This document shows positions 17,836 through 18,982 of a DNA stretch of 64,000 nucleotides, in pieces (the stretch's first letter is position 1; the number at the start of each line of letters is the position of its first letter). Source of the stretch: Flavobacterium sp. Lineage in GTDB: Bacteria > Bacteroidota > Bacteroidia > Flavobacteriales > Flavobacteriaceae. Where the stretch lies: assembly GCA_015234525.1 (NCBI GenBank), contig JADGMX010000049.1, positions 186,001 through 250,000 on the forward strand. Reading direction: 5' to 3'. A program made the translations under genes and the position numbers. Under the pieces are notes generated by a model. The model had not been told where the DNA came from and made no database searches. It saw only the letters and a list, made by a program, of their open reading frames with translations.

Positions 17836-18931
17836 TTATTCGGATTTCTGGCCCATCATCATCAAATAGGCCTTTAGAAACTCGTCAATTTCGCCGTTCA
17901 TCACGCCATCAACATCGCTGGTTTCGTGCTGAGTGCGGACATCCTTGACCAATTTATAAGGATGCATGACATAGTTGCGAATTTGTGAACCCCACTCAAT
18001 TTTCATTTTATTGGCTTCGATTTCGTCGCGCAATGCCTGCTTTTTCTTGAGTTCGATTTCGTACAACTGTGATTTTAGAAGCTGCATCGCCTTGGTTTTG
18101 TTGTCGAGTTGCGAGCGCGTTTCCGAGTTTTCGATAATAATCCCGGTAGGATGGTGACGAAGTCGGACGGCAGTTTCAACCTTGTTGACATTCTGGCCAC
18201 CGGCGCCGCTGGAACGCATGGTTTCCCAGGAAATTTCCGACGGATTAATCTCAATTTCGATAGTATCATCAGCCAGCGGATATACATAAACTGACGCAAA
18301 TGAGGTATGTCGCTTGGCATTTGAGTCAAAAGGCGAGATGCGAACCAGTCGGTGGACACCGTTTTCACCCTTGAGATATCCGAACGAATAATCGCCTTCA
18401 AATTCGAGGGTAACGGTTTTGATACCGGCAACTTCTCCCGCTTGAAAGTTAAGTTCGCGGATTTTGTAGCCTTGTTTCTCGCCCCACATCATGTACATCC
18501 GCATGAGCATTTGCGCCCAATCGCAACTTTCGGTTCCGCCGGCGCCGGCCGTTATTTGCAAAACTGCGCTCATGCTATCGCCTTCATCGGAAAGCATGTT
18601 TTTGAACTCGAGGTTTTCGATATGCGCGTTCGTGATCTCGTATTGTTGGTCGAGTTCTTCGACGGTGAGTTCACCTTCTTTGTAAAATTCGTAGGCGAGT
18701 TGAAGCTCGTCAGCAAGTGCGGTTGCTTTATCGTAATCCTCGACCCATTTCTTCTTGGAACGCAGGTTTTTGACGATTATCTCGGCTTCCCGGGCGTTGT
18801 TCCAAAAATCAGGTGCAAAGGTTTTTTCTTCTTCGTTGGTAATTTCTACAAGCTTGGCATCAACGTCAAAGATACCTCCTTAGCGCACCAAGACGCTCTA
18901 CAATACCTTTGATTTGTTCGGTATTTGTCAT
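17836..18931 (-). CDS. prfB: peptide chain release factor 2, expressed through +1 programmed frameshift at TGA 18868-18866
   Basis: Main frame has RF2 motifs (GAGGTESCDWAQML, SSGAGGQNVNKVETAVRL). Zero frame on minus strand: ATG ACA AAT ACC GAA CAA ATC AAA GGT ATT GTA GAG CGT CTT GGT GCG CTA AGG AGG TAT CTT TGA C; after +1 shift GAC GTT GAT GCC AAG CTT GTA, in frame with the track ORF 17836..18597. Confidence 0.96.
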
Positions 18932-18982
18932 AGTAATCATGTAATTTTGTTCTTCACAAAAATACCATTCATTTTTATATAT

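Follow-up and report, generated by a model that had tools for sequence, protein, structure and literature searches.

Programmed frameshifting in prfB, the gene for release factor RF2, has been described in two settings that bear directly on the site reported here. In E. coli, the prfB site AGGGGGUAUCUUUGAC (quoted in PMC8710568) consists of a Shine-Dalgarno (SD)-like hexamer, UAU, CUU, UGA and C, and the ribosomes that read it have a free anti-SD. According to the mechanism given in the literature, an element of the AGGAGG type pairs with the 16S tail, strains the P-site duplex and thereby aids the slip, and frameshifting in E. coli is described as the more efficient. The closest counterpart lies in Flavobacterium johnsoniae, where McNutt et al. 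2021 found the sequence AGGAGGUAUCUUUGAC in prfB and explicitly posed the paradox of an SD in this gene despite an occluded anti-SD (PMC8710568). The same work recorded the prfB frameshift in 523/726 Bacteroidia, noted its uniform absence from the Weeksellaceae, and reported that an F. johnsoniae strain freed of the frameshift suffers no obvious fitness loss (PMC8710568). In F. johnsoniae the 16S tail is held by bS21, bS18 and bS6; rpsU carries an extended SD, bS21 is autoregulated by ribosomes lacking bS21, and codon-54 and C-terminal mutants of bS21 were used in that study (PMC9976891). Frameshifting at F. johnsoniae prfB is called low in a passage of Prince et al. 2025 (PMC12421855) that cites Naeem et al. 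2024 (RNA 30:136), and a passage of another paper (PMC13245932), again citing Naeem et al. 2024, states that a non-autoregulated strain grows modestly better at sublethal streptomycin.

The window analyzed here, a stretch of 64,000 nucleotides from a Flavobacterium contig, contains a prfB gene with the following features:

Positions 18866-18931, minus strand: prfB ORF0, 21 aa (MTNTEQIKGIVERLGALRRYL), from ATG (18931) to an in-frame TGA (18868-18866).
Positions 18875-18880, minus strand: AGGAGG, an SD-like stimulator separated by 3 nt (TAT) from the slippery CTT that follows it, assigned from sequence and predicted pairing.
Positions 18865-18871, minus strand: slippery site CTT TGA C, with TGA in the A site and GAC as the +1 codon, assigned from sequence and family-wide invariance.
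Positions 17836-18867, minus strand: prfB main frame (+1), encoding RF2, 343 aa, from GAC (18867-18865) to TAA at 17836.

The minus strand from 18880 to 18865 reads AGGAGGTATCTTTGAC, that is AGGAGG, TAT, CTT, TGA and C, and covers prfB codons 18-22. An earlier sequence-only reading of this DNA had reported that string, with the spacing of the E. coli RF2 site, and it proved correct to the base. Its placement of the resumed main frame at GAC was likewise borne out: the +1 frame reads on as DVDAKLVEITNEEEKTFAPDFW... to 17836, and its product is RF2, matching NCBIfam TIGR00020 prfB at 469 bits (cut-off 370) and containing the Pfam PCRF and RF-1 domains. The full frameshift product is 364 aa long. 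A second in-frame ATG lies upstream at 18940, and the prfB of relatives begins at the equivalent of 18931. Under a first-order model about 1e-5 copies of the 16-mer would be expected in the 64-kb window, and one is observed; termination at TGA is found in 23 of the 179 called ORFs. An RNA structure as an added stimulator was considered and rejected, because the fold of 18895-18790 does not surpass those of shuffled sequences (z -0.6).

As a standard RF2 frameshift that has been described in this genus with an identical sequence, the finding is not new. The site itself does not differ from that of F. johnsoniae, which has it at the same codons, 18-22, and raises the same puzzle, namely why a member of the Bacteroidia with an occluded anti-SD has an SD there; only the species is another. 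Relative to E. coli, the order and spacing of the elements are the same, whereas the hexamer is AGGAGG in this Flavobacterium and AGGGGG in E. coli.

The surroundings of the gene offer several observations of their own. On its upstream side, prfB is divergent from a plus-strand gene for a threonine aldolase-like PLP enzyme (beta-eliminating lyase family), whose ATG lies at about 18983, leaving about 51 bp (18932-18982) between the two. Within this interval, positions 18964-18957 carry TATTTTTG, which is similar to a Bacteroidetes -7 box; if it served as such for prfB, the leader would be about 20 nt long. Just downstream of prfB, the gap that follows the gene contains a Flavo-1 RNA element (Rfam RF01705; 17736-17822, plus strand), and further copies at 2286, 23711, 25783, 38297 and 52913 bring the number in the window to six. 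These are possibly terminator-like or repeat elements.

The lineage looks SD-independent, as the sequence-only reading had held, because SD pairing is no commoner at its gene starts than elsewhere: a pairing of -7 kcal/mol or stronger is predicted for 4 of 178 starts, versus 5 of 178 internal control stretches. An enrichment of A is seen at positions -11/-12 of the starts. A 16S gene was not found in the source assembly, and the anti-SD was therefore read from genomes of the same genus, in which the 16S tail is GGAACACCTCCTTTCT with an intact anti-SD, CACCTCCTTTCT. The organism's own rpsU carries an extended SD, GAGAGGAGGTG, before its start, with a predicted pairing of -20.9 kcal/mol, and the bS21 that it encodes is 64 aa long with Tyr54. 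SD-poor starts, Tyr54 in bS21 and an extended rpsU SD, together with the intact anti-SD of the same-genus 16S tails, are the features of Bacteroidia in which the anti-SD is sequestered.

Judged from its sequence and distribution, the site is almost certainly a conserved +1 programmed frameshift by which RF2 autoregulates its own synthesis, and one at which the SD probably supplies only a modest or conditional boost. The Leu tRNA in the P site would slip from CUU to UUU and translation would resume at GAC to yield the 364-aa RF2; plentiful RF2 would lead to termination at UGA and to the 21-aa peptide. Because the 16S tail would normally be held by bS21, bS18 and bS6 in this lineage, AGGAGG would probably add only a little, or add it under particular conditions, for example in ribosomes short of bS21, and the slip would occur without it. 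The site, its frames and its conservation come from the present analysis, and the literature supplies the mechanism and the sequestration; that the SD acts conditionally is our inference. A bS21 mutation reportedly raises frameshifting in the study of Naeem et al. 2024, in which an SD-less Winogradskyella site is also said to work as well as the native site.

Conservation in the genus and in the family gives two different pictures of the SD. The 16-mer AGGAGGTATCTTTGAC is present in 80/80 of the nearest named relatives and, in exact form, in 291/300 genus genomes, versus 2/300 for the reversed pattern. Eight of the nine exceptions could be classified: three are without the frameshift, two keep AGGAGG with the spacer changed synonymously to TAC, one has AGAAGG in place of AGGAGG, and two (L347 and L348; AGACGATATCTTTGAC) have AGACGA, which is no SD, and keep the frameshift. 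Across the Flavobacteriaceae, a survey of 113 genomes, nearly one per genus, found the frameshift retained in 99, with CTTTGAC invariant in all 99. A strong SD accompanies it in 46 of these (AGGAGG in 44, AGGGGG in 2) and is missing from the other 53, where AGGCAC is the commonest replacement (34 genomes). Against the 16S tail of the genus, the AGGAGG of the window has a predicted pairing energy of -12.5 kcal/mol and AGGGGG one of -10.7 kcal/mol, whereas AGGCAC and the further variants without an SD that were calculated pair no more strongly than -2.7 kcal/mol.

The near-constant 16-mer of the genus and the strong predicted pairing of its AGGAGG are both what would be expected if the anti-SD were freely accessible during elongation and AGGAGG had the full effect of the E. 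coli element. The sequence-only reading had offered such accessibility as one of two implications of the retained SD, the other being regulation. We regard full accessibility as improbable. It sits poorly with the low frameshifting reported for F. johnsoniae in the passage noted above (PMC12421855), and it is weakened further by a condition that the sequence-only reading had itself named as refuting, relatives without the SD that keep the frameshift: these are 53/99 frameshift-bearing family genomes and, in the genus, 2-3 of 300 (two with AGACGA, one with AGAAGG). Regulation, on the other hand, may still apply, because the near-perfect conservation within the genus indicates selection on the prfB SD.

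Somewhat less probable again is the view that AGGAGG has no function and is kept only through its coding for Arg-Arg or through shared ancestry. Clades with the frameshift but no SD would be in keeping with it. Yet AGG accounts for 5% of Arg codons in the 179 other ORFs of the window, AGGAGG encodes just 1 of their 120 Arg-Arg pairs, and none of 80 relatives differs in the prfB hexamer, whereas adjacent codons show synonymous variation. Because AGG is rare here and the hexamer is nevertheless nearly invariant in the genus, the comparison indicates that constraint is acting on the hexamer as DNA, beyond the encoded protein alone. The early in-frame TGA of prfB might also suggest a sequencing error or a pseudogene, a reading that we reject as having next to no likelihood, since hundreds of genomes share this TGA at the equivalent position and the remainder of the gene is intact. 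The preferred reading is thus an autoregulatory frameshift with a modest or conditional SD.

A possible lead to the loss of the SD elsewhere in the family comes from bS21. We compared 80 frameshift-bearing family genomes, picked as 40 with and 40 without the prfB SD. At least two bS21 genes are present in 12/40 genomes with the SD versus 32/40 without it. A strong SD precedes the classical bS21 gene in nearly every case, whereas the second type, as read here, has none. This second paralogue, of a KRKHRN type (MLKIIVKDGENIERALKRYKRKHRN...), is SD-less and co-occurs with SD-less prfB sites (family genomes L284-L340); in six genomes with an SD-less prfB, the sole bS21 gene type is SD-less. At least one SD-less bS21 gene was scored in 38/40 SD-less-prfB genomes versus 12/40 SD-bearing ones (raw Fisher p 1e-9), a count in which the window's own genome replaces G296 (rpoB not found), about 17 genomes were scored as having an SD-less bS21 from the presence of a second gene, with SD absence extrapolated from those pairs whose sequences were read, and the single-copy SD-bearing genomes G246, G249 and G229 were assigned an SD-bearing bS21 with the gene unread. 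An rpoB tree of 79 of the 80 genomes plus the window's own yields about six independent pairs for this association, of which 2-3 agree and 0-1 go against it, and after this correction for kinship the link between prfB SD loss and an SD-less bS21 is not significant. That loss of the prfB SD in the Flavobacteriaceae tracks the state of bS21, such that genera with an SD-less bS21 lost the SD and kept the slippery stop, is accordingly a tentative and rather doubtful proposal, and we put the link forward as a hypothesis, not a result. Under it, the 16S tail would stay sequestered through an unregulated supply of bS21, leaving the prfB SD useless.

The site confirms, in another Flavobacterium, the published paradox of an intragenic SD that is maintained where the anti-SD is hidden. 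What comparison adds is that the genus keeps this SD almost always, whereas more than half of the family genomes sampled that bear the frameshift no longer have it. Its absence goes together with SD-less bS21 genes, and this suggests where to test whether the composition of the ribosome controls the use of the SD.
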